Shown piece after piece: positions 3,483-60,352 of a stretch of DNA of 64,000 nucleotides. The stretch lies in NCBI GenBank assembly GCA_011389815.1, contig JAABTP010000004.1, forward strand, positions 1 through 64,000, in the 5' to 3' direction. The DNA comes from Desulfobulbaceae bacterium (GTDB taxonomy: Bacteria > Desulfobacterota > Desulfobulbia > Desulfobulbales > Desulfobulbaceae). How positions within the stretch are numbered: position 1 is the first letter of the stretch; each line of letters begins with the position of its first letter. Made by a program: the position numbers and the translations under genes. The notes below the pieces were generated by a model that saw nothing but the letters and a program-made list of their open reading frames with translations, did no database searches and had not been told where the DNA came from.

Positions 3483-4994
3483 ATGAAAAAGAATGATAAG
3501 TATATCCTTTCCGCTGCTACCGTACTGGCCCTGTTCCCGGACGGGTTAGTGGAGAAGCTGGCAGCCGTGCATCAGGAATTCGGCGGTGAAATCTATTTGG
3601 TAGGCGGTGCAGTGCGTGATCTGCTTCTGGGGCGGCAGCCTGGCGATCTTGATTTCACCGTAGCTTGCAATGCCGAACAATGGGCAGAAAAGTTACAAGT
3701 TATCACCGGCGGAACCTATGTGGAATTGGGTCGGGAGGAAGACGCAGCCCGGATTGTGCTTCGGAAAGGAGTGGATGTTGATTTTTCTTCGTTCCGGGCC
3801 GGTGCGCAGTCCATTGCAGAGGATCTGGAGAAACGTGACATCACTGTGAATGCCTTGGCCGTGCCAGTCCATGATCTGCTCACAGGTCGTTGTCAGGACC
3901 AGAATGAGTTACCAATCATTGATCCGACAGGTGGGCTTGTTGATTTGGAGCAACAGCAGGTACGGGTTGCCGGGAAAAAGAGTTTTTCTGATGATCCGTT
4001 GCGGATGCTCCGGGTGTTTCGTTGTGCTGCGGTCCTTGATTTTACCATTGAATCGGATACCCTGGAACAGATCCACCAGCAGCGGGAAAGTATTGATCGG
4101 GTAGCCACGGAACGGGTTGCCTATGAGCTGGACTTGATTATGGCCTCACCCAGAGCGCATCAAACCTTCAGCGCGATGCGGGACAGCGGGTTGCTTTGGG
4201 AAATTTTGCCAGAACTGCGGGCAGGGCAGGGCATGGATCAGCCTGCCAGTCATCATCTGGATGTGTTTGAGCATTGCCTGGAGACTCTGTATCAGATGGA
4301 GCAGGTGCTTGCAGACCTTGAACATTACTTCCCGGTGACTTTCCCGGTAATGACAGAGTATTTGGCAACGAAAAAACGGCAGGTGCAGATGAAATGGGCT
4401 GCTCTGTTCCATGATGTGGGCAAACCCGTTACCTATGGGATCAATGAGGACAAAGGCGGGCGGATCACCTTTTATAACCATGATCTGCGCGGGGCTGACA
4501 TCCTGACTGAAATCGCCGGGCGGCTTCGGTGGGCCAAAGAAGACACTGCGCTGGTCGCTCGGTTGATTGGTGGCCATATGCGTCCGTTTTTTCTTGCCAA
4601 TAATCAGCGGCAGGGCAAGCTGACCCTGAAAGCCTGTCTGCGTCTGGTGCGAAAAATTGGAGAACACCTTCCTGGTTTGTTTCTGGTCGCCATGTCCGAT
4701 GCTTTGGCTGGGAAAGGTGAGGCCAGCCCTGATGATATTGAGCAGGAGGTGGCCGGACTTTTTGACCGTCTGCTTCAGGTCGAGGAAAAGCATGTGACCC
4801 CGGTGCGCACGGCTCCTCCTCTGATTACAGGCAGGGATTTGATCGAAGAACTCGGTCTTACACCTGGTCCCTTGTTCCGTGAAATTTTGGACCAAGTGGA
4901 AGAGGCCCATATGGAACATCGGGTCAGTACCCGTGAGGAAGCACTGGCTTTGGCAGCCTCGGAGGCGGAAGACCTGTCCCGCCAATCCTTCTGA
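3483..4994 (+). CDS. cca: CCA-adding tRNA nucleotidyltransferase / poly(A) polymerase family with HD domain
   Basis: The product adds or repairs the 3' CCA of tRNA. The class II nucleotidyltransferase head is clear at residues about 35-60 (GGAVRDLLLGR followed by GDLDFTV, the metal-binding DxD). An RNA/nucleotide-binding segment follows (DPLRMLRVFR, with RVATERVAYEL after it). The C-terminal half holds an HD phosphohydrolase-type domain (LFHDVGKP). At 503 residues it matches HD-containing CCA/PAP enzymes. I took ATG at 3483 over an upstream in-frame TTG at 3474. It precedes rlmE with two palindromes in between. Whether it adds the whole CCA or only part of it cannot be read from sequence alone. 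Confidence 0.85.
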   Translation: MKKNDKYILSAATVLALFPDGLVEKLAAVHQEFGGEIYLVGGAVRDLLLGRQPGDLDFTVACNAEQWAEKLQVITGGTYVELGREEDAARIVLRKGVDVDFSSFRAGAQSIAEDLEKRDITVNALAVPVHDLLTGRCQDQNELPIIDPTGGLVDLEQQQVRVAGKKSFSDDPLRMLRVFRCAAVLDFTIESDTLEQIHQQRESIDRVATERVAYELDLIMASPRAHQTFSAMRDSGLLWEILPELRAGQGMDQPASHHLDVFEHCLETLYQMEQVLADLEHYFPVTFPVMTEYLATKKRQVQMKWAALFHDVGKPVTYGINEDKGGRITFYNHDLRGADILTEIAGRLRWAKEDTALVARLIGGHMRPFFLANNQRQGKLTLKACLRLVRKIGEHLPGLFLVAMSDALAGKGEASPDDIEQEVAGLFDRLLQVEEKHVTPVRTAPPLITGRDLIEELGLTPGPLFREILDQVEEAHMEHRVSTREEALALAASEAEDLSRQSF

Positions 4995-7791: not shown

Positions 7792-8502
7792 ATGCAGAAA
7801 AAAAGATTGACCGAGTTGGCAGCAGTGACTGTTGCCCTCCTGTTGGTGACCGCCGTTCTCTGGCTCACCGATGCTGATCGTTTTATCACCTCGCTTGTTC
7901 CCCGTGACCTTACTATTGCTGCTGTGCTTCCTGAGTGCAACAGGGCCTGGCCTGTGGGAAATCTTTTTCCCTGGAATATCCTGTATGAGGTTGCGCCGAT
8001 CCCGGCAGTTATCCTTGCTGTTTCAGCCGTATTTGTTCTGTTGATGGGTTTTTTTCGTGAGCGCTTTGCCCATTGGCGTAAAAAGGCTCTTTTTATCCTG
8101 TTGTTGCTTGCCATAGGTCCAGGGCTGGTTATCAATGTCCTGCTTAAAGGAGAGCTTGGCAGACCCCGTCCCCGTCAGATCGTTGAATTTGGTGGAGAGC
8201 ATCAGTTTACCCAGTGCTGGCAACCGGGCGGCGGAGGCAGCAATAGCTCGTTTCCTTCCGGTCATGCTGCGATTGCTTTTTTTCTCATGGCCCCTTGGTT
8301 TGTGTTACGGGATGGAAAGAAACGGTATGCAGAGGCCTTTTTGGTTACTGGCCTCCTGTTTGGCACCCTGGTTGGCGTTGCCCGGATTCTTCAGGGAGGG
8401 CATTTTGTCAGCGATATTCTATGGGCTGGAGGGATTTTATATCTTGTAGGCAGTCTGTTAGGGCTTGCCTTGGGAATGCATAAGGATGGTGTGGCTGATT
8501 AG
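7792..8502 (+). CDS. PAP2-family membrane phosphatase
   Basis: The protein carries the three PAP2 signatures in order: KGELGRPRPRQ, then FPSGHA, then ARILQGGHFVSD. The catalytic His residues are in the second and third motifs. Six membrane segments surround them. PAP2 enzymes dephosphorylate lipid phosphates such as undecaprenyl pyrophosphate, phosphatidylglycerol phosphate or lipid A, with the active site facing the periplasm. The LpxE/LpxT-like insertion GGEHQFTQCWQPGGGGSNSS between motifs 1 and 2 hints at a lipid A or polyprenyl substrate, but this cannot be settled from sequence. ATG 7792 was preferred to an upstream TTG. It ends tail-to-tail, overlapping the next gene by 4 bp. Confidence 0.75.
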   Translation: MQKKRLTELAAVTVALLLVTAVLWLTDADRFITSLVPRDLTIAAVLPECNRAWPVGNLFPWNILYEVAPIPAVILAVSAVFVLLMGFFRERFAHWRKKALFILLLLAIGPGLVINVLLKGELGRPRPRQIVEFGGEHQFTQCWQPGGGGSNSSFPSGHAAIAFFLMAPWFVLRDGKKRYAEAFLVTGLLFGTLVGVARILQGGHFVSDILWAGGILYLVGSLLGLALGMHKDGVAD

Positions 8503-37563: not shown

Positions 37564-38262
37564 ATGAAAACAGAACTTGCAGGAAAACCGGTCTTTGCCT
37601 ACGGGCATGTGGATCTTGAGCCGGGAGAGAGCATTATTGCGGAATCAGACGCCATGGTCAGCATGGATGCGGACCTGGACATGAAGGCCGGGCTGAACGG
37701 GAATGTCTTTTCTGCCCTGTGTAAGAGATTTCTCGGCGGGGAAAGCCTGTTCGTCAATACCTTTACCAATCTCGGCGGGGAAAGCCTGTTCGTCAATACC
37801 TTTACCAATAATACCAAAGGAGTGAAACGGGTGACCCTGACCCAGGCCACCCCAGGAGACATCCGAACACTGGAGCTGAACAATGAAAGCTACTGTCTCC
37901 AGCCCGGTGCCTATATCTGCTCCACACCGGGAGTCAAACTGGGGGTCAAATGGGCCGGGTTCGCCTCTTTTATTGGCCGCGAAGGGCTGTTCAAGCTCCA
38001 GGTCTCCGGGACCGGCACGGTCTGGTTCGGGGCCTATGGCGGTCTGCTGGAACGGGAGATCAACGGGGAATACATCGTGGATACCAGTCATCTGGTGGGC
38101 TATGAACCGCAGATGAAACTCAAGGTTCAGCTGGCTGGTGGTCTTTTCTCCAGTTTTTTCAGCGGCGAAGGCCTGGTCACACGGGTCACGGGCACAGGCA
38201 AAATTGTTGTCCAGACCCGCAGTATCTCCGGGCTGGCTGGCTGGGTGAACCGAAGTCTTTAA
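37564..38262 (+). CDS. AIM24/TIGR00266-family protein, paralogue 1
   Basis: GGAGGCGGC precedes the ATG. The product has the family's beta-rich fold: EPGESIIAESDAMVSMDADL near the start, a central SGTGTVWFGAYGG, NGEYIVDTSHLVGY and a C-terminal FFSGEGLVTRVTGTGKI. Bacterial members are of unknown function, and the mitochondrial homologue AIM24 affects inner-membrane organisation. A perfect 39-bp tandem duplication (37732-37770 and 37771-37809) repeats 13 residues (GESLFVNTFTN core), so this copy is slightly longer than its paralogues. Confidence 0.78.
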   Translation: MKTELAGKPVFAYGHVDLEPGESIIAESDAMVSMDADLDMKAGLNGNVFSALCKRFLGGESLFVNTFTNLGGESLFVNTFTNNTKGVKRVTLTQATPGDIRTLELNNESYCLQPGAYICSTPGVKLGVKWAGFASFIGREGLFKLQVSGTGTVWFGAYGGLLEREINGEYIVDTSHLVGYEPQMKLKVQLAGGLFSSFFSGEGLVTRVTGTGKIVVQTRSISGLAGWVNRSL

Positions 38263-42188: not shown

Positions 42189-43433
42189 TTATTCGTCGTC
42201 TTTTGTTTTCAGCAATGCCTTTGCTGCGTTCAGTCTCTTTTGCCTGATTTTTTTGTCCAATAATGGGACAGCACGTTCAATGCTCCTCAGTGCCTCCTGT
42301 CTATCAGCGACCTCTGCGTCGGGCCACTTATTGTGTTTCAAAATTTTTTTAAGTTGTCCCTGAAGGTCACTCCTGATATTTTTTGCAGCTGGCCCCATCT
42401 TGTTGGTAAGATTGTCATGCTGATCTAATAACGTATTGAGTTCATGGGTAAGTTGTTTCTCTGGAGTCAAGCTTGAAAGCCACGCAGCCTCTTTTTCGGC
42501 AGCAATTTTTTCCTGCTCTGCTTTTTCATCGGCTACCCGCTGGGCCTCCTTTTTTGCCTCTTCAGCGGCAATTTTATCACGCTCCTCCTTTTCTCGTGCT
42601 TCTCTTTCTTTTCGTCGCTCTTCCTCCTCAACAAAATACCCATACCCGGCAGCAACCTTCCCGCCGATACCATCCGCTTCCAGGGCTAACGTGAGAAACT
42701 TCATACCCAGTTCCGCCCATTGCTGCGCACCTTCCACGACAAAATAAAAGCTCCCCTGTACCGCTAATTGCTGATTGGGATTAGGTGATTCCATATCAGG
42801 ATGGGGAGCAATTTCTCCTTGATTTTTATAGTATTCCACTGCATGGACAGTGACGATTTCCGGGGCATAAGGCTTATCTTCGCAACCGCCTTCCTGTTTG
42901 GGAATCCACCAGGCATCGTGGAAGATCAGGTAGCCGGTATCGGCTTCAGTTTCCGGGTGTTTGGGATCATTGCAGTCCGGCCCGAACAGAACATTGACGA
43001 TATCCTGACTCATACCGTATTCACCTTTATCGGCATACTGTTTTGCCTTGGCGCGGGCCAGTCCCTTCAGAGCCGAGCCGGGAATATAGGGCATCCCATA
43101 CACCGGGTGGCGGCAGACCTGGGTTTCCAGGACATGGGCCATGCCCAAACCGATGAACAGGCGGGTTCCGTCAAGTTGGCCAAACCAGCGGGCGAAGCGA
43201 TTTTTATCCGCAGTTTTTCCAAGCCAGCGGCGGTAAGCTGCTTTGTAAACATCTGAGACCGGGATGTCGCAGACAATTCTGATGTGATCGCCTATGTCTT
43301 CGCCCCGTTCTCCATCTTTTTCAGCATTCCATTCCTCAAATCCCTTATCAAAGAACAGGCCGGGATTGTCCCACTTTTTCCCTTCCTTTATCAACTCAGG
43401 AAGGACTTGCCGTCGCATTTTAATCGCCGTCAT
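42189..43433 (-). CDS. cmr6: Type III-B CRISPR RAMP protein Cmr6 with long charged C-terminal extension
   Basis: Cmr6 is the Cas7-like subunit capping the Cmr effector filament. The RAMP core spans residues about 1-275: FIGLGMAHVLETQVCRHPVYGMPYIPGSALKGLARA (split here as its GMPYIPGSALKGLARA part is diagnostic) and LEADGIGGKVAAGYGYF, the G-rich loop. After this comes an extension of about 140 residues, first a Glu/Lys/Arg-rich coiled coil (EEEERRKEREAREKEERDK), then a helical segment. The extension is unusual for Cmr6. Overlaps cmr5 by 14 bp. Confidence 0.85.
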   Translation of the reverse strand: MTAIKMRRQVLPELIKEGKKWDNPGLFFDKGFEEWNAEKDGERGEDIGDHIRIVCDIPVSDVYKAAYRRWLGKTADKNRFARWFGQLDGTRLFIGLGMAHVLETQVCRHPVYGMPYIPGSALKGLARAKAKQYADKGEYGMSQDIVNVLFGPDCNDPKHPETEADTGYLIFHDAWWIPKQEGGCEDKPYAPEIVTVHAVEYYKNQGEIAPHPDMESPNPNQQLAVQGSFYFVVEGAQQWAELGMKFLTLALEADGIGGKVAAGYGYFVEEEERRKEREAREKEERDKIAAEEAKKEAQRVADEKAEQEKIAAEKEAAWLSSLTPEKQLTHELNTLLDQHDNLTNKMGPAAKNIRSDLQGQLKKILKHNKWPDAEVADRQEALRSIERAVPLLDKKIRQKRLNAAKALLKTKDDE

Positions 43434-43869
43434 GGTTTCCTCTGTCCGTTGTTTCTTCTATGGAAGTCCCTGTGGCATCGATCTTTAATACGCTCTCAAC
43501 AAAGCGTCGGTACCAGAGAGCCACTTCCAGGCAACGACGGGTATGGCGCATGTAGCTTTGCAGATCAGCTCTTGCAAGATCCTTTAGGATGTTAACCTGA
43601 TCCGGTTCACTGTTTAAGTTTAATGTCGCTAAGATATGGTCAAGAAACAGCCCTTCAGCCGTGTCTCTCGTGTTCTGTCCAGTTTCCGCCTTTGCATGCG
43701 CCTTGCCCGCATAAAAAGCAAGGGTCTGCTGGAGGCCATTCTGTCGGATCAAAAAAGGAAAACGATGGACAGCGGTGGCGTAGCTCTTCTTAAACTCTTC
43801 TTCTTGTTCCAGGACGTTCTGAACATCTTCCAACGCCTGCAAAGCATCCTGCTGTTGTCGTGTCTGCAT
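43420..43869 (-). CDS. cmr5: Type III-B CRISPR protein Cmr5 (small subunit)
   Basis: This 149-residue all-helical protein fits the Cmr5/Cas11 small subunit, which lines the inner side of the effector filament. RFPFLIRQNGLQQTLAFY is the family hallmark. The ends are Gln/Asp-rich. It sits between cmr4 and cmr6, as expected. Confidence 0.88.
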   Translation of the reverse strand: MQTRQQQDALQALEDVQNVLEQEEEFKKSYATAVHRFPFLIRQNGLQQTLAFYAGKAHAKAETGQNTRDTAEGLFLDHILATLNLNSEPDQVNILKDLARADLQSYMRHTRRCLEVALWYRRFVESVLKIDATGTSIEETTDRGNHDGD

Positions 43870-43872
43870 GGC

Positions 43873-44937
43873 TCATTCCCCCTTTTGTCCGGGAATCCAG
43901 CGCACCCGGCCCCGACCGACTGTGGCATTACCGCCGATTTGTAACGAGATTGCGGCGTCTTTTCCTTTTCGCCCCTCCAGGTCGGATCTGAAATACTCCA
44001 TGAGATCAGGAGATTCTTTTTCTTCACCTTCTTCCTTTGGTCTTCGGGAGCGATCACATCCCAGAAGCCCCCACAGCAGGGTCTCGGCGGGTAGATTTTC
44101 TTCGTACCACAAAGCACCATCTTCCACTGTCCGAGTACCTTCCTTGAGTTTGATCCTCGCTCGAACCTCAGTGGCGGTTTCAGCCAGAAAGCTGAACACG
44201 TTATCTGGGATAATCAGAAAGCGTTTTTGGAAAAAATCTTGCCAGTTATCGTCTGGAGCAGAAGCAGTTGGGAATATGGCCTGGGCAATTTCTCCTGCAA
44301 TGAGGTCCGCAGATTGCCTGTCTTCAGTCGTCTGAAAATCTAAGTCTTCAAGGAAAACAGATTGTCCGTCGCTTGAACAGAGCTGGCTGCCCGTGGTCAC
44401 CAGCACCATGGTTTTCCCCTCTGTGTTTGATTTCCCGTCCAGAGAAGGAATTACAGGCAAGTTCGGGCGGTCTTCTTTGACCTGCGTATACACTTCATCC
44501 AGATCCCGCTTATATCTCTGCAAAATAAAAGGACAGGTCACCCAGGCAAAGACCCCGTACACCGAGCGCACGGGCAGGCAGAGCAGCTGGGCATCCTGAA
44601 TGTTCAGGGCACCGGCAAAGATTTTTCGTTCTTCCTCTTTATCATTATCAACCTCTTTGGCATCCGGTCCGAACAGGGTTGTCCATTTCTTTGTTGCTTT
44701 GTTATACTCCTGTTCATCTTGTTGAGCCTGTTCAGGAGTGGTTTCTTTAAAATCTGACTCCTCGTCTTTTATGGGCCGCAACTCCTCCCGCAAAACCCCC
44801 TTGATCCCGCTGCCCGGCACAATGGGCAGGCCGGTTGATTTTTCCCTGGCAATGGGCAGATCAATAACCCCGACGCCTTGGCCTGTTCCCGCATGGAGGG
44901 CGGTGAGGGTATGGATGTAATAGCACATGGTCTTCAT
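43873..44937 (-). CDS. cmr4: Type III-B CRISPR RAMP protein Cmr4 (Cas7 backbone, target RNA cleavage)
   Basis: Cmr4 forms the repeated backbone and cuts target RNA every six nucleotides. The N-terminus has LHAGTGQGVGVIDLPIARE, which includes the conserved loop Asp (VIDLP), the catalytic position in Cmr4. GLPIVPGSGIKGVLRE and the C-terminal IGGNATVGRGRVRW (G-rich loop) mark the RAMP fold. The start overlaps the cmr3 stop by ATGA. Its length of 354 is somewhat long. Confidence 0.9.
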   Translation of the reverse strand: MKTMCYYIHTLTALHAGTGQGVGVIDLPIAREKSTGLPIVPGSGIKGVLREELRPIKDEESDFKETTPEQAQQDEQEYNKATKKWTTLFGPDAKEVDNDKEEERKIFAGALNIQDAQLLCLPVRSVYGVFAWVTCPFILQRYKRDLDEVYTQVKEDRPNLPVIPSLDGKSNTEGKTMVLVTTGSQLCSSDGQSVFLEDLDFQTTEDRQSADLIAGEIAQAIFPTASAPDDNWQDFFQKRFLIIPDNVFSFLAETATEVRARIKLKEGTRTVEDGALWYEENLPAETLLWGLLGCDRSRRPKEEGEEKESPDLMEYFRSDLEGRKGKDAAISLQIGGNATVGRGRVRWIPGQKGE

Positions 44938-46241
44938 TTCTCTTTCTCCTCTGCGGTGTTTGTTTGCTTCTCGTCTTGTTTCCAGATACCCGGCAGAACC
45001 AGGCCGTAGCCGTCGTTCCGGTCCTGGGGCAAATCACTGATCGGTCGGAGCCAGAGTTCAGGGAGATGTTCGTGGCCTTGTTCGACTTCAAACCAGTACA
45101 CAGCCCCGGCAGGCACCATCCGACGGACAGCGCGGGCAGCACCTGATCCTTTTTTTTCCGGTTTATCTCCGGGTTGAGGATTTCTCACCAGATCCCAGCC
45201 GGAAACCGGCTCCCAGCGCGGAGTGATAAAGGCCCGTAGGCGAAGGCGGATACGGGGTTCCGAATCTTTAGCAAAGCCCGGAGGACAGCCTGTCATATCA
45301 TCTTGGATCCAGCCTGGTCGCCAACCATTGGCGAACAGGGCCGGAGTGGCAAGGATGAGGCGGATGCCTCGGATTTCTTTATCCTGCTCCAGTTTGCCCA
45401 GCGCAGAGGTCAGTGCTTCCGGGATTCCCGGCCAAGCTTCCGGTCGTCGTTCAACCCGGGCAATTCGTCCTTCTCCACCGAGGCGGCGAAAAAATTCTGG
45501 TATGTCTTTCAGATTATCATCCGGTAGCCGGGCAAGAAGTCCGTATTGCTCTGTATTCCATCCATCTTTTTCTTCTCGTTGTCTGGGGGAAAAAGAAAGG
45601 TTGTTGGTTTGAAAGAGTTGGCCGGTTGCAGCGGCCAGGGTTTCTGATTCCAGCTGGACATGGGTGCGCAGTTCCTGCTCGGGGCCGGACCAACCCAGAC
45701 TTTCAGGGGTAATATCCTTGAGTTTATGGTTATTCAATAACCAGTCAGTGAGCCGAGCTTGGCACCACCATCTGGCATTGTCTTTATTTTTATATGGTTT
45801 ACCCGTAAGTTCCTTTTCCGGGTAGATTGGCAGCAATCCTTCAGGCAGGTCGGCCCAGGTGTCGGTCCCGGCATATTCAGGGGTGAGTTGCAGGACTTCA
45901 GTTTCTCTATTATTCCTTTCCCGGCCTTCCTTCTTGCTATCCTTCCGCATATAGACAGCATCTTCCGGTTTGGGAAAGAGCGGCTCTGCCCCGTCTTGGG
46001 TAATCAGGGCGGCCAGCGGGCCATGTACCGGGATATTTTTCAGTGTATGGCCGTCTTTGCTGAAATCCATATTATCTGCATCGCCGATGGCGGTGCGACA
46101 GGCCCCGGCAATGGTCGAGGGCAGAGGGAAATCCAGAGAAACCGGGTCACCTGCCTGATCAAAGGGTCTGCCGGTGCGGAAGACCAAGGGGGATTTGGGT
46201 TCAAAAAGATAGGCGGTGCTGCTTTTTGTTTCGTTGCTCAT
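44934..46241 (-). CDS. cmr3: Type III-B CRISPR protein Cmr3 (Cas5-like)
   Basis: Cmr3 binds the crRNA 5' tag and joins the Cas10 head. The start at 46241 (MSNETKSS) follows GGAGGAAAGAGA and overlaps the restored cmr2 stop. Motifs are FEPKSPLVFRTGRPFDQAGD and SLDFPLPSTIAGACRTAIG near the N-terminus and NDGYGLVLPGIW near the end, all typical. The 435-residue length is within the family range. Confidence 0.87.
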   Translation of the reverse strand: MSNETKSSTAYLFEPKSPLVFRTGRPFDQAGDPVSLDFPLPSTIAGACRTAIGDADNMDFSKDGHTLKNIPVHGPLAALITQDGAEPLFPKPEDAVYMRKDSKKEGRERNNRETEVLQLTPEYAGTDTWADLPEGLLPIYPEKELTGKPYKNKDNARWWCQARLTDWLLNNHKLKDITPESLGWSGPEQELRTHVQLESETLAAATGQLFQTNNLSFSPRQREEKDGWNTEQYGLLARLPDDNLKDIPEFFRRLGGEGRIARVERRPEAWPGIPEALTSALGKLEQDKEIRGIRLILATPALFANGWRPGWIQDDMTGCPPGFAKDSEPRIRLRLRAFITPRWEPVSGWDLVRNPQPGDKPEKKGSGAARAVRRMVPAGAVYWFEVEQGHEHLPELWLRPISDLPQDRNDGYGLVLPGIWKQDEKQTNTAEEKEK

Positions 46242-48191
46242 TCTCTTTCCTCCCCGTGTGCGCCCAGCCAACGGGCGATGAGATGTTCTTTATACACGGA
46301 CTCAATATCAAAATTTTTCTGCCCGGCATGGGCAAGGACTGCCTTTGTGGTTGTTTTTTTTAATTTTTTCTCCCCCGCCGCCCTGATTTTTGCGTTTTAA
46401 AATTCGATCGAGTTCCAGTTTGGCAATCTTTTTTGCCTCCTCGTCACTCATCCCTTTGACCAAGCGGGCCGTTTCCCGTAACTCATAACCAAAGCCAGCT
46501 GGTAGGTCTTCATCTCGGTACAAATCAGCAAGGTCATGTAGCTCTTCTACCGGACTTCTCTGTTCGTTCTGTTCAATATCATCTTGTTTTTTGGATGGTT
46601 CTCTTTCCCATTTTGCCCGGAAGCTCATATCTGCCCCGGAGCGGGGGGCAACAATAATCGCCAAGGCGTTGCGGGGATCATCTGTGTCTGAACCTTTTGC
46701 CAAATCCTCTGCCCGATGAACCAGTTTGCGCACCCGACCCACAGGTGCCTGCATGTGAGCGATGACAATGCCGACGCTGAAGGTGGGAGCATCTTTCTCT
46801 AATTCACCGGCAATGCCCTCTAATGTTGTCGTAAAGGCTTTGCGTAGTTCGTCAGCCAGCAGGAGCACGGTGTCCAGGGGGGCCATGAGCAGGACATCAT
46901 CACCGCCTGCGTAGATGCAATGGGCACAATAATCTCTTGCGATTTTTGGTACGAATTGGGCAAATGCGGACAGGCATTGTGAGATTTCTTTATGATGACC
47001 TTTGTCCTGTGCAGCTTTAATCAGGCGACCCATGTGGTCACCGTCTGCCAGGAGCAGGGCATAGTATGGGCAGGGTTGGCGATATTCTTTCCATGCCTTT
47101 TTAAGGACTTCACTTTTACGTAGCTCTGATAAAATCCTCTGAACAGAGGAGCGTTGCGGGAATTCTTTGTCGTGTTTTACCTTGGCGATCACCGCATCCA
47201 GAACACTCCGGTAGAGCAGGCCCGCATCAAAAGGCATATCGCCGTATATTCCTTGGTTGCCCTGAACCTTGGTCATCAGGCCGGTATCAAGCAGAATCTT
47301 TTCATATTCACGACTCTCCAGCTTGTCCTGAATTTTTTCCAAGTCGGCCAGCCCATTTTCAGCTTCTTTAATCTTCCGTATCCACGGATCAATAGCAATG
47401 CGGGTGGTGGGAGTAAATTGGAGGGAGGAGCGACCAGAATTTTTTTCATCATTTGGATCGCCACCAGCTAATCGCTTGACCAGCCCCAGCACATCCAGCT
47501 GCTCGCCTTCGCCCATGCGCAGTTTGCGCCGGATTTTTTTGTCCAGGCCTTCCGGCAACACGGTTTCCCGCCGTCCGTCCAGAGAGGATTTGGGCAGACC
47601 GTACAGCCCTGCTTCATTGGGTGCTTGTGCAGATTGACGGAAATCACGGCTGTTCTTGCGGGCTGAATTGAGTTGGCTGAGACGTTGCCATGCCTCCGGG
47701 TACGTTCCGTTGATGCGGGCGGCTGTGCCGTAAAGTTCAAGGAGGTCTTCAGGTTTGGCCTGTATCTCCCAGATTTCATCACGCAAGGTGATCTTCTGCT
47801 CATCCGGCTTTTTGTCTCTGTTGATGATCCTTTCTGCCTCTTTCTTTGCCTTTTGGATAAACTCTTCCAATAACCATTTCCTGGCGGCATTTTTTCCGGT
47901 GTTGATGACATCTTTTACAGTATCTTCATCTCCTGAAACCTGAGCCACAATCCGGTTGGCGACGTTGATCTCTACTGGTTTGAGCTTGTCGCTCTCTTCT
48001 TCAGCAGGAAAAATCAGTTCGGTGTGTATGTTTTGTTGATTGTAGTCATTGATGGCGATGGCAGCGGCTTTGCTCACTTCCGAGAGCATGTGGGAGCCGA
48101 ACCAGAGGTCGCGGGTGCGGAGGGCGGCGGAGATGAAGTCCTGGACCGGGCCTATGGAGAGGCTGATGAGCCAGATTTCCTGGTTGCTCAT
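46238..48191 (-). CDS. cmr2: Type III-B CRISPR Cas10 (Cmr2), GGDD cyclase, with an apparent 3' frameshift
   Basis: Cas10 of type III-B systems; the cyclase palm makes cyclic oligoadenylates. YYALLLADGDHMG is the first palm motif and IYAGGDDVLLMAP holds the GGDD. The N-terminus begins LSIGPVQDFISAALRTRDLW. I see no HD-nuclease motif. Read literally, the frame ends at 46308 with 15 odd residues. If one A is dropped from the A8 run at 46354-46361, the frame runs on through VYKEHLIARWLGAHGEERE and stops at 46238, overlapping the cmr3 start as ATGA. That longer end looks authentic. Either the run is miscounted or expression needs slippage. Confidence 0.85.
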
Positions 48192-49522
48192 GGCTTTTTG
48201 CCTCCGTTTTCAAAGAAGGTCATGAAGGCGGTGAGGGCGTCGGTGCCGTCATTGTCTCTGATTGGATCTACGAGTGTCGCCTTGCTTGCTTTCCACCAGT
48301 TTTTCGACCACTTCGCAGGTGGTCCTGATATATATATTTCACCTTTTTTGAGAGCCAATGTCATTGCTTTAATATGATCTTGATTTTTCATCAACAACGC
48401 AGCGGGTACATACCGGGTGATTCCGTTTTCTCGTACCGGATAAGCTGTCAAAATTAATGGACTGGCCAAGCGTTCAAGGTTTGGATCAGCTGGAACTAGA
48501 TGAGTTGTTTCGGGATCGTTCTTCTTTTCATCTCTGGATTGAGTATCTTTGGGGCTAAATTTGAATTCAATAGGTAGACCAAAAGCGGCTCTCGGGAAAG
48601 CAGGCATTGCTTTATGCGTTGGCTTATGTGTAAAAGGTCTACCTTTATGATATCCTTTAAAATAACTGTTGGTTATTTTTCGGATGCTGTCCGGTTCCGG
48701 CCATTTTGATCTGCCGAACCTGTTATTTCTTCCATGATTACGAGCTATATTTGGTGCTTGGCGGAATTTATAAAGGATATCAATCGCTCGCTTCCAAGAC
48801 GGAATGGGGTTCCTTGGAGTCTCTCCTTTCGGAAAAACTAATTCGCAGCCTACAGCTTTTGCTTCTTTTCTGGTTACAGGAGGAAGATTTCCAAGTTCAT
48901 TAGTGCAGTATACACTGCCGCAGCCGCGACGAGTACGTGCCCCTATGCCGCCAAATGTTACCCACCAGCGCAATGCGCATTTGATCTCTTTTCTTTTGTT
49001 GTTATCTAAAATGCGTAGCTGCAAATTAAAGGTCATTCTTTCTCGTATCAATTTTTTAGGATGGTCTTCATCCGCCTCCTTACGTGCTGGGAAGAGTGCG
49101 TAGCCAGCTTCTTTCTCATCATAATATTTAATGTTTTTGTTCTGGATGTCGCAAATTTTAATCCGCACCTTACTGCTATGATCTTCCCCATCCTCAGCCA
49201 TACCACCCCAAATATCGCGCTCATCCCGAAATAGCCTTTTCTGCTCTTTGCGATCTGTGAGATCTCGGTTGGCACTCTCCAAAAATCTCCACCAATACCG
49301 CAACTGCCCCCGAATAGCCGAGGCCCGGATCGGCATCTTCGTGTCCGGCTCACCAGCCTTGACCCCGCCACCGAATATTGGGGTAATGACCTCAATTTTG
49401 TATTTATGCCATTTTTTCTCTTCCTGCTTTGCAGCCTGTTGATCAAGATCTTGTAAGGTTTGCTCCAGACTGAATTGTGGTTTCAGCTGTGCAATTTTAT
49501 CCTTTGGGTCACGCAATCTCAT
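48188..49522 (-). CDS. cmr1: Type III-B CRISPR RAMP protein Cmr1
   Basis: Cmr1 caps the 3' end of the crRNA-bound complex. The start at ATG 49522 follows AAGGAGCAGG; the open frame further upstream looks non-coding. Motifs are VITPIFGGGVKAGEPD, IRASAIRGQLRYWWRFLES (the RAMP loop), and WWVTFGGIGARTRRGCGSV. It begins the cmr1-2-3-4-5-6 operon and overlaps cmr2 by ATGA. Position 49523-49620 should contain the operon promoter. Confidence 0.88.
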   Translation of the reverse strand: MRLRDPKDKIAQLKPQFSLEQTLQDLDQQAAKQEEKKWHKYKIEVITPIFGGGVKAGEPDTKMPIRASAIRGQLRYWWRFLESANRDLTDRKEQKRLFRDERDIWGGMAEDGEDHSSKVRIKICDIQNKNIKYYDEKEAGYALFPARKEADEDHPKKLIRERMTFNLQLRILDNNKRKEIKCALRWWVTFGGIGARTRRGCGSVYCTNELGNLPPVTRKEAKAVGCELVFPKGETPRNPIPSWKRAIDILYKFRQAPNIARNHGRNNRFGRSKWPEPDSIRKITNSYFKGYHKGRPFTHKPTHKAMPAFPRAAFGLPIEFKFSPKDTQSRDEKKNDPETTHLVPADPNLERLASPLILTAYPVRENGITRYVPAALLMKNQDHIKAMTLALKKGEIYISGPPAKWSKNWWKASKATLVDPIRDNDGTDALTAFMTFFENGGKKP

Positions 49523-49711
49523 AGTCCTGCTCCTTGAAGATGAAGGATGCCTGTTGCTATTTATATAAATTCTCTCATATCTAACTCTACGGGGCGAAAT
49601 GTCAAGAGAATTCTTGGGTACATCTTGACAAGGCAGTATCAGGTTGCTACTCTCTGAATCAGGTCGCCTGGAAGACAGGGAGGTTACCAAGAAAAGAGCA
49701 GAGGCTCGAAA

Positions 49712-50741: not shown

Positions 50742-51860
50742 ATGCTGCAACCCCACGAATATCCCCGCCGCATCCTCCTTGCCGTCATCGGCATGACTCC
50801 ACAAATCCTTACGGAAACCCTGTACAAACTGGCCGTGGACAGCAGCCCGGCCTTTGTGCCCACGGAAGTCCACCTGATCAGCACGGCCCAGGGTGCGAAC
50901 TCTGCCCGGAACGCCCTGCTCGGGGTTGGAGGCGACAAAGGGGAATTTCATCGTTTTTGTGAGGATTACTGTCTGGAAGGTATCTGCTTTGCATCCGACC
51001 ATGTTCATACAATAGCAGGCCCGGACGGTCCTTTTGTCGATGATACTGAATCGGCGGAGCATAACACCATGACAGCGGATTTTATCACCGAGCAGGTCAG
51101 ACACTTTACTGAAGACAATCAAGCTGCGCTCCACCTTTCCCTGGCCGGAGGTCGTAAAACCATGTCCTATTATGCGGGCTATGCCCTGAGCCTGTACGGA
51201 CGGATGCAGGACCGCCTTTCCCATGTCCTGGTGGCGAAACCCTTTCAGGAAAACAAGGATTTTTTCTACCCTCCGCCCCGACCGCAACGCATTGCGGTCA
51301 ACAATACCTGGTACTCCACTGAAGAGTCCCGGATTATCCTCTCCGATATTCCCTTTGTCCGGATGCGGTATCAGATCCCGGAGGCCCTGCTTACAGGCAG
51401 TGCCGGATTTCAGGAAACCGTGGAAACCATCCAGCGTTTTTCCAGCCCTGAAACCATAGAAATTGATATTCGTTGCAAGCAGGTACGATTGAATGCTCTG
51501 AAGGTGCGCATGGGGGATGCAGATCTGGCACTTTATCTCTGGATGTGCCAACGCCGTAAAAACGGAGAACCGCCCTTTATCCCGGATGAAGATGCCTTTG
51601 TTGATGAGTATATTGCTGTTTATAGCAAAATTGTCGGAGAATGGAGCGGTAGGATCGACCGGGTGGAGGAGGTGGCCCGGGGTCGGGATGCTGCTCAGCA
51701 GAAAGAGTGGTTTCTTCAGCGGAAATCCAAGCTGAAAAAGGCTGTTGTGTCAGTGCTCGGGGAACGGGCGGCCCGTCCTTTTCTTATTCAGACCGTGGAG
51801 GTTGACGGGCAGGCAGGTTATCTTGTTGAAATGGAACCAAGGGATATATTAATCAGCTGA
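50742..51860 (+). CDS. TIGR02584 (NE0113)-family CRISPR-associated CARF protein, putative ring nuclease
   Basis: The N-terminal CARF domain has ILLAVIGMTPQILTETLY and STAQGANSARNALL. A central LHLSLAGGRKTMSYYAGY follows, all family marks. The C-terminal part (about 230-372) contains a winged-helix-like stretch (LNALKVRMGDADLALYLW) and the closing SVLGERAARPFLIQ element. No HEPN RxxxxH is seen. Such proteins sense or degrade cyclic oligoadenylate made by Cas10. The array begins about 420 bp downstream on the same strand. Confidence 0.82.
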   Translation: MLQPHEYPRRILLAVIGMTPQILTETLYKLAVDSSPAFVPTEVHLISTAQGANSARNALLGVGGDKGEFHRFCEDYCLEGICFASDHVHTIAGPDGPFVDDTESAEHNTMTADFITEQVRHFTEDNQAALHLSLAGGRKTMSYYAGYALSLYGRMQDRLSHVLVAKPFQENKDFFYPPPRPQRIAVNNTWYSTEESRIILSDIPFVRMRYQIPEALLTGSAGFQETVETIQRFSSPETIEIDIRCKQVRLNALKVRMGDADLALYLWMCQRRKNGEPPFIPDEDAFVDEYIAVYSKIVGEWSGRIDRVEEVARGRDAAQQKEWFLQRKSKLKKAVVSVLGERAARPFLIQTVEVDGQAGYLVEMEPRDILIS

Positions 51861-52279: not shown

Positions 52280-52663
52280 GTCGTAGCACCTACCCTATGA
52301 AGAGGGTATTAAGACGGAATTTTATTTTCTGAAAAACAAAAAGAACACACTGTCGTAGCACCTACCCTATGAAGAGGGTATTAAGACCCTCCCTTGAGAC
52401 AATTTAATAACTAACTCTAGTCGTAGCACCTACCCTATGAAGAGGGTATTAAGACATAGCTTGTTCTTCTGTAAATCCACATATCATCGTCGTAGCTACC
52501 CTATGAAGAGGGTATTAAGACCCCCTCGGCAATAAAGCCTCAGAAAAATTAACTGTGATGTCGTAGCACCTACCCTATGAAGAGGGTATTAAGACTATAA
52601 AAAAAGATCCTCTAAAAGTTATTGCTAGTCGTAGCACCTACCCTATGAAGAGGGTGTTAAGAC
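52280..52663 (+). CRISPR. CRISPR array, 6 repeats and 5 spacers
   Basis: Repeats are 36 nt and begin GTCGTAGCACC, with TACCCT-ATGAAG-AGGGTA forming a 6-bp hairpin. Their positions are 52280-52315, 52352-52387, 52420-52455, 52489-52521 (33 nt, 3 bases missing), 52560-52595 and 52628-52663 (one A-to-G change near the end). Spacers are 36, 32, 33, 38 and 32 nt. The terminal mutation places the array's trailing end on the right. The repeat suits the Cas6/Cmr system around it. Confidence 0.95.
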
Positions 52664-58765: not shown

Positions 58766-58822
58766 CACCTACCCTATGAAGAGGGTATTAAGACAAGGGG
58801 CGGATCTATGTGTCCGCCCCTT
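58766..58822 (+). repeat. Solitary CRISPR-repeat fragment followed by REP hairpin
   Basis: 29 nt (58766-58794) match the last 29 nt of the array repeat exactly. AAGGGGCGGA (58795-58804) then pairs with TCCGCCCCTT (58813-58822). The array's 5' part GTCGTAG is missing. Confidence 0.8.
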
Positions 58823-60040: not shown

Positions 60041-60352
60041 AGCCTGTTCTGCCCTATGAAGAGGGTATTGAGATGTAGGGGCAGACCCGTGTGTCTGTCC
60101 TTGTACGCGCCACCCCGGCTGAAAAAACCGACCGCTTTTTTCTACACCCTTGCCGGGACATAAGCAGCCGACAGCCTCTTTTTCTTTCTTATAGATACCA
60201 CAACGCTAACCTTGTCTTGCCCTTGCTTTTTTCATGCGGTATATAGGGGAAACAGACAAACAGGTTCGCGCCCCTGTGTCGGTACGGAGTATCCCGATCA
60301 GAGATAATCGGGCAGACACGCAGCTCTGCCCTACGCCAAATGACAAAAGACT
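60041..60352. repeat. CRISPR-repeat-like core, REP hairpin and gap before cobT
   Basis: CCCTATGAAGAGGGTATT (60052-60069) is identical to the CRISPR repeat core and is followed by GTAGGGGCAGACCCGTGTG, a REP half. Further palindromic words (GGGCAGACACG, AGCTCTGCCC) lie near 60310. No gene is seen up to cobT. Confidence 0.6.

Follow-up and report, generated by a model that had tools for sequence, protein, structure and literature searches.

A one-base frame break near the end of cas10/cmr2 in a type III-B CRISPR locus of a Desulfobulbaceae bacterium

Introduction

Cells are known to escape type III self-targeting through frameshift indels in cas10 (PMC5687920). Runs of A in or near coding sequences can also change the reading of a gene at the level of transcription. 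In Citrobacter rodentium tssM1, an A11 run allows a transcriptional rescue of about 25% (PMC4256274), and in Thermus dnaX slippage occurs at an A9 run (PMC1088944). For E. coli RNA polymerase, no one-base deletion was detectable at the poly(A) runs tested, which were as short as the run of eight described here (PMC6260861). Here we describe a type III-B cas10/cmr2 gene in which the family reading frame is lost close to the end of the gene, at a stretch with such a run, and we compare it with these systems.

Results

The window, by which we mean the whole stretch of 64,000 nucleotides that was analysed, is from a cable-bacterium-like genome and contains a type III-B locus running from cmr1 to cmr6 (49690-42189, minus strand), together with an accessory gene:

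48188-49690, minus strand: cmr1, intact, with an ATGA overlap with cmr2
46308-48191, minus strand: cas10/cmr2 as read directly, 627 residues, stop codon TGA at 46310-46308, last 17 residues not of the family
44934-46241, minus strand: cmr3, intact
43873-44937, minus strand: cmr4, intact, with an ATGA overlap with cmr3
43420-43869, minus strand: cmr5, intact
42189-43433, minus strand: cmr6, intact
50742-51860, plus strand: accessory gene of the Cas_NE0113 family (NCBIfam: CRISPR-associated ring nuclease Csm6), intact and 87% identical to that of a relative

The preliminary description had extended the ATGA overlap to the other cmr junctions. This is right for cmr1/cmr2 and cmr3/cmr4; cmr4 and cmr5 are separated by a 3-base gap, and cmr5 and cmr6 overlap by 14 bases. 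No further copy was found in viral contigs, searched with one exact-match pattern, or in plasmids. Elsewhere in the window, at 37731-37808, an open reading frame carries an exact 39-base tandem duplication (LGGESLFVNTFTN repeated). On another contig (G000:C129:5529-5957), a RAMP-domain match lies within an open frame of 1094 residues, possibly a multi-RAMP or gRAMP-like gene.

The Cmr2 protein scores 151.4 bits against the type III-B Cas10/Cmr2 model TIGR02577 (curated cut-off, 79.4) and 111.3 bits against the Pfam palm2 model, also above the curated cut-off. Its palm GGDD motif is intact, and an HD domain is absent. The first 610 residues of the direct reading are family sequence, after which the protein continues into a non-family tail, KKNNHKGSPCPCRAEKF, and ends at 46308, as the preliminary description had correctly stated. 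The frame offset by one base translates to KKTTTKAVLAHAGQKNFDIESVYKEHLIARWLGAHGEERE, and its stop codon (46240-46238) overlaps the ATG of cmr3 (46241-46239). Between 46310 and 46398 both frames are open, and homology narrows the switch to an A6-TT-A8 stretch. The features concerned are as follows:

46364-46369, minus strand: A6 run, which in the gene precedes the A8 run with two bases between them
46354-46361, minus strand: A8 run on the cmr2 sense strand, where the frame is lost, absent from relatives
46238-46360, minus strand: true end of Cmr2, in the frame offset by one base, with about 39 codons and a final TGA that forms an ATGA overlap with the cmr3 start

The proposal that a one-base slip at the A8 run restores the C-terminus thus stands as far as the offset frame is concerned, but the length change could equally sit in the A6 run.

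We compared the end of the gene with that of four close relatives (about 68% identity), three of which are closed genomes of the same genus (G004, G006, and G007) and one of which belongs to the same family (G034). In all four, the frame continues without a break into ...EHLIARWLGAH(G/R)E(E/D)R(G/E) and has the ATGA overlap. Against a C-terminal profile built from 56 relatives, with the window excluded, the read-through form scores 205.7 bits, about 23 bits more than the 182.5 bits of the direct form, and the offset-frame tail alone reaches 14.5 bits, compared to 6.8 for the best of 200 shuffles. The preliminary description had allowed that homologues might end at the short form. This is not what we found, as 55 of the same 56 relatives that built the profile reach beyond profile column 190, whereas the direct form ends at column 170. 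A codon comparison in the offset frame gave dN/dS values of 0.23 to 0.38 for the tail and 0.15 to 0.20 for the gene body. Relatives, profile gain, and dN/dS all identify the longer C-terminus as that of the family, as the preliminary description had proposed. On these sequence comparisons, the offset-frame codons are the true C-terminus of Cmr2 and are under purifying selection, which indicates that any break must be recent.

The AlphaFold model of the intact protein of relative G004 (mean pLDDT, 90.5) agrees with solved Cmr2 structures and places the final helices at residues 605 to 621 and 628 to 645. The direct reading leaves the family sequence at the position equivalent to residue 603-604 of this intact relative and therefore lacks both final helices, so that its C-terminal helical bundle is incomplete. 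The equivalent end of Cas10d forms a Cas11-like bundle (PMC7689449). Loss of the two last helices may weaken assembly of the III-B complex or signalling here.

The preliminary description had suggested that conservation of the run among relatives would bear on whether it is used for slippage. The A8 run is absent from all four close relatives. In 71 distant relatives, searched over the last 210 bases or just past the stop codon, there is no run of at least eight, and A7 occurs in only 2. The conserved slippery run that is looked for in programmed transcriptional slippage is thus missing. A8/T8 runs are common in this genome (968 copies). On the sense strand of 401 genes, A8 was observed 81 times compared to 47 expected from synonymous shuffling (ratio, 1.72), and depletion of A runs on the coding strand (ratio below 1) begins only at A10 and longer. 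A8 is not avoided in the way of a run that is long enough to slip here and, following the reasoning of Baranov et al. (PMC1088944), its enrichment in coding sequence suggests that it is not noticeably slippage-prone in this lineage.

A frameshift HMM scan of the assembly mostly flags gene boundaries and is blind to short C-terminal tails, and for this reason only its homopolymer subset was used. In a 712-kb sample of the assembly, 111 interior A/T runs of at least eight were in frame, and the single flag was a boundary between two genes. When each of these 111 runs was shortened by one base in silico, 72 (65%) were flagged. Frequent frame breaks at homopolymers were therefore not seen in this assembly and, with no confirmed break in 712 kb at 65% sensitivity, no more than a few percent of such runs should be in error. 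Homopolymer errors are thus unlikely to be pervasive, but a single one may well have occurred.

The only other Cas10 gene detected in the genome (L055:3097-4719, contig C3) carries a GGDE motif and belongs to a multi-RAMP type III locus. An in-frame TGA (4135-4137) interrupts it at a position that is Lys in its two closest homologues. In G006 and G010, the homologous genes are unbroken. The rest of its codons can still be aligned with those of relatives, and the adjoining RAMP genes are intact. In an interruption screen of 94 gene pairs against relatives, 7 were flagged. Four were left once spurious cases had been removed by hand, namely both Cas10 genes, one Roco protein, and one small degenerate gene. 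An apparent break in L083 was set aside, as the stop precedes the start, and one in an antisense L055 frame was set aside as a shadow open reading frame. About 2 of 88 other compared genes (about 2%) are thus interrupted. The Roco-type gene (LRR-Roc-COR, L078:7784-9853) has its in-frame TGA at 8140, near the C-terminus in comparison with G006. That both of the two Cas10 genes are broken, compared to about 2% of the others, is suggestive of real loss; the pattern emerged only in hindsight and may be coincidental.

The window also carries a small CRISPR array:

52280-52663, plus strand: CRISPR array with six 36-base repeats and five spacers

None of the five spacers matches this genome elsewhere with up to 3 mismatches, and self-targeting was therefore rejected for the local array, which is the one that this search covered. 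Contigs C16 and C26 carry more arrays with the same repeat. Within the local array, the repeat at 52486-52521 has lost three bases (GTCGTAGCTACC instead of GTCGTAGCACCTACC), and the last repeat (52628-52663) has one substitution. Solitary copies of the repeat core lie outside arrays at 58769-58794 and 60049-60074 of the window and on contig C184 (7422-7447).

Discussion

All relatives examined are intact and lack the run, which points to a mutation that is recent and private to this genome, or to an error in the sequence, and not to a built-in slippage switch. We give an even chance to a real lesion, in which the A6-TT-A8 stretch of cmr2 has recently changed in length by one base in this genome only. 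The change would then be present in the organism itself and would leave the final 39 codons of the gene in the wrong frame. The resulting Cmr2 would keep its palm and GGDD sites and lose the two last helices of the C-terminal bundle, and assembly of the III-B complex or its signalling would probably be weakened or lost. A real lesion is favoured because there are no confirmed breaks at other runs and because the second Cas10 gene has a lesion of its own beside intact partner genes. Against it, the tail shows no clear relaxation, and the local array offers no self-targeting spacer that could account for selection for loss. A consensus or assembly error, with the organism's cmr2 unbroken and only the run length wrong, is an explanation that we share with the preliminary description and regard as a tentative second choice. 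A single homopolymer indel in a draft of 233 contigs is what a consensus error classically looks like, reading through restores the exact family sequence, with a residue count from GEK to VLAHA equal to that of a relative, and the tail codons look fully constrained. However, the other interior runs of at least eight gave no confirmed frame break, and the lesion in the second Cas10 gene is a nonsense codon and not a homopolymer indel. A real lesion is more likely than an error.

The preliminary description had also raised transcriptional slippage that tunes Cas10 levels. If the A8 run is real, RNA polymerase might slip there, leaving one base fewer or two more in the transcript, and partly restore the product, so that long and short Cmr2 would both be made. 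The precedents at longer runs, A11 in tssM1 (PMC4256274) and A9 in dnaX (PMC1088944), and the continued constraint on the offset tail frame fit with this, but the run is missing from relatives, it is enriched in coding strands with depletion only from A10, and the E. coli polymerase was silent at the poly(A) runs tested (PMC6260861). We consider such a rescue unlikely, and the claim of programmed slippage for cmr2 should be dropped. Programmed ribosomal frameshifting is far less probable still. A perfect -1 heptamer, A_AAA_AAC, is present in phase, but a -1 shift leads into a third, non-family frame (KKQPQRQS...), whereas the family frame requires a +1 shift. Shifting by -1 was rejected because the resulting frame is wrong; moreover, the downstream RNA structure is not significant (z, -0.73), and the site is unconserved.

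The frame break in cmr2 is in itself an ordinary feature of an already known kind. If it is real, it is another natural case in which Cas10 is lost and the remainder of the type III system is kept. With a second broken Cas10 gene in the same genome, selective loss of signalling or DNase activity becomes a testable idea. It is conceivable, and in our view improbable, that both Cas10 genes are being inactivated selectively, each by its own recent lesion, with the RNA-cutting RAMP subunits retained, or that the cmr2 run lets the population switch Cas10 signalling reversibly on and off.

Among described systems, the type III-A cas10 escape mutants of S. aureus (PMC5687920) share with this locus a frameshift by a single-base indel and otherwise intact cas genes, whereas the present case is a natural genome in whose local array no self-targeting spacer was found. 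C. rodentium tssM1 likewise has a poly(A) run shortly before a premature stop codon and a family C-terminus in another frame; the run described here is 8 and not 11 bases long and is not conserved. With the type III-B Cas10/Cmr2 proteins of TIGR02577, the gene shares the Palm2 and Cmr2_N domains, the GGDD motif, the cmr1-6 operon, and the C-terminal helical bundle, and it differs from them in that its final 39 codons are out of frame in the present genome.
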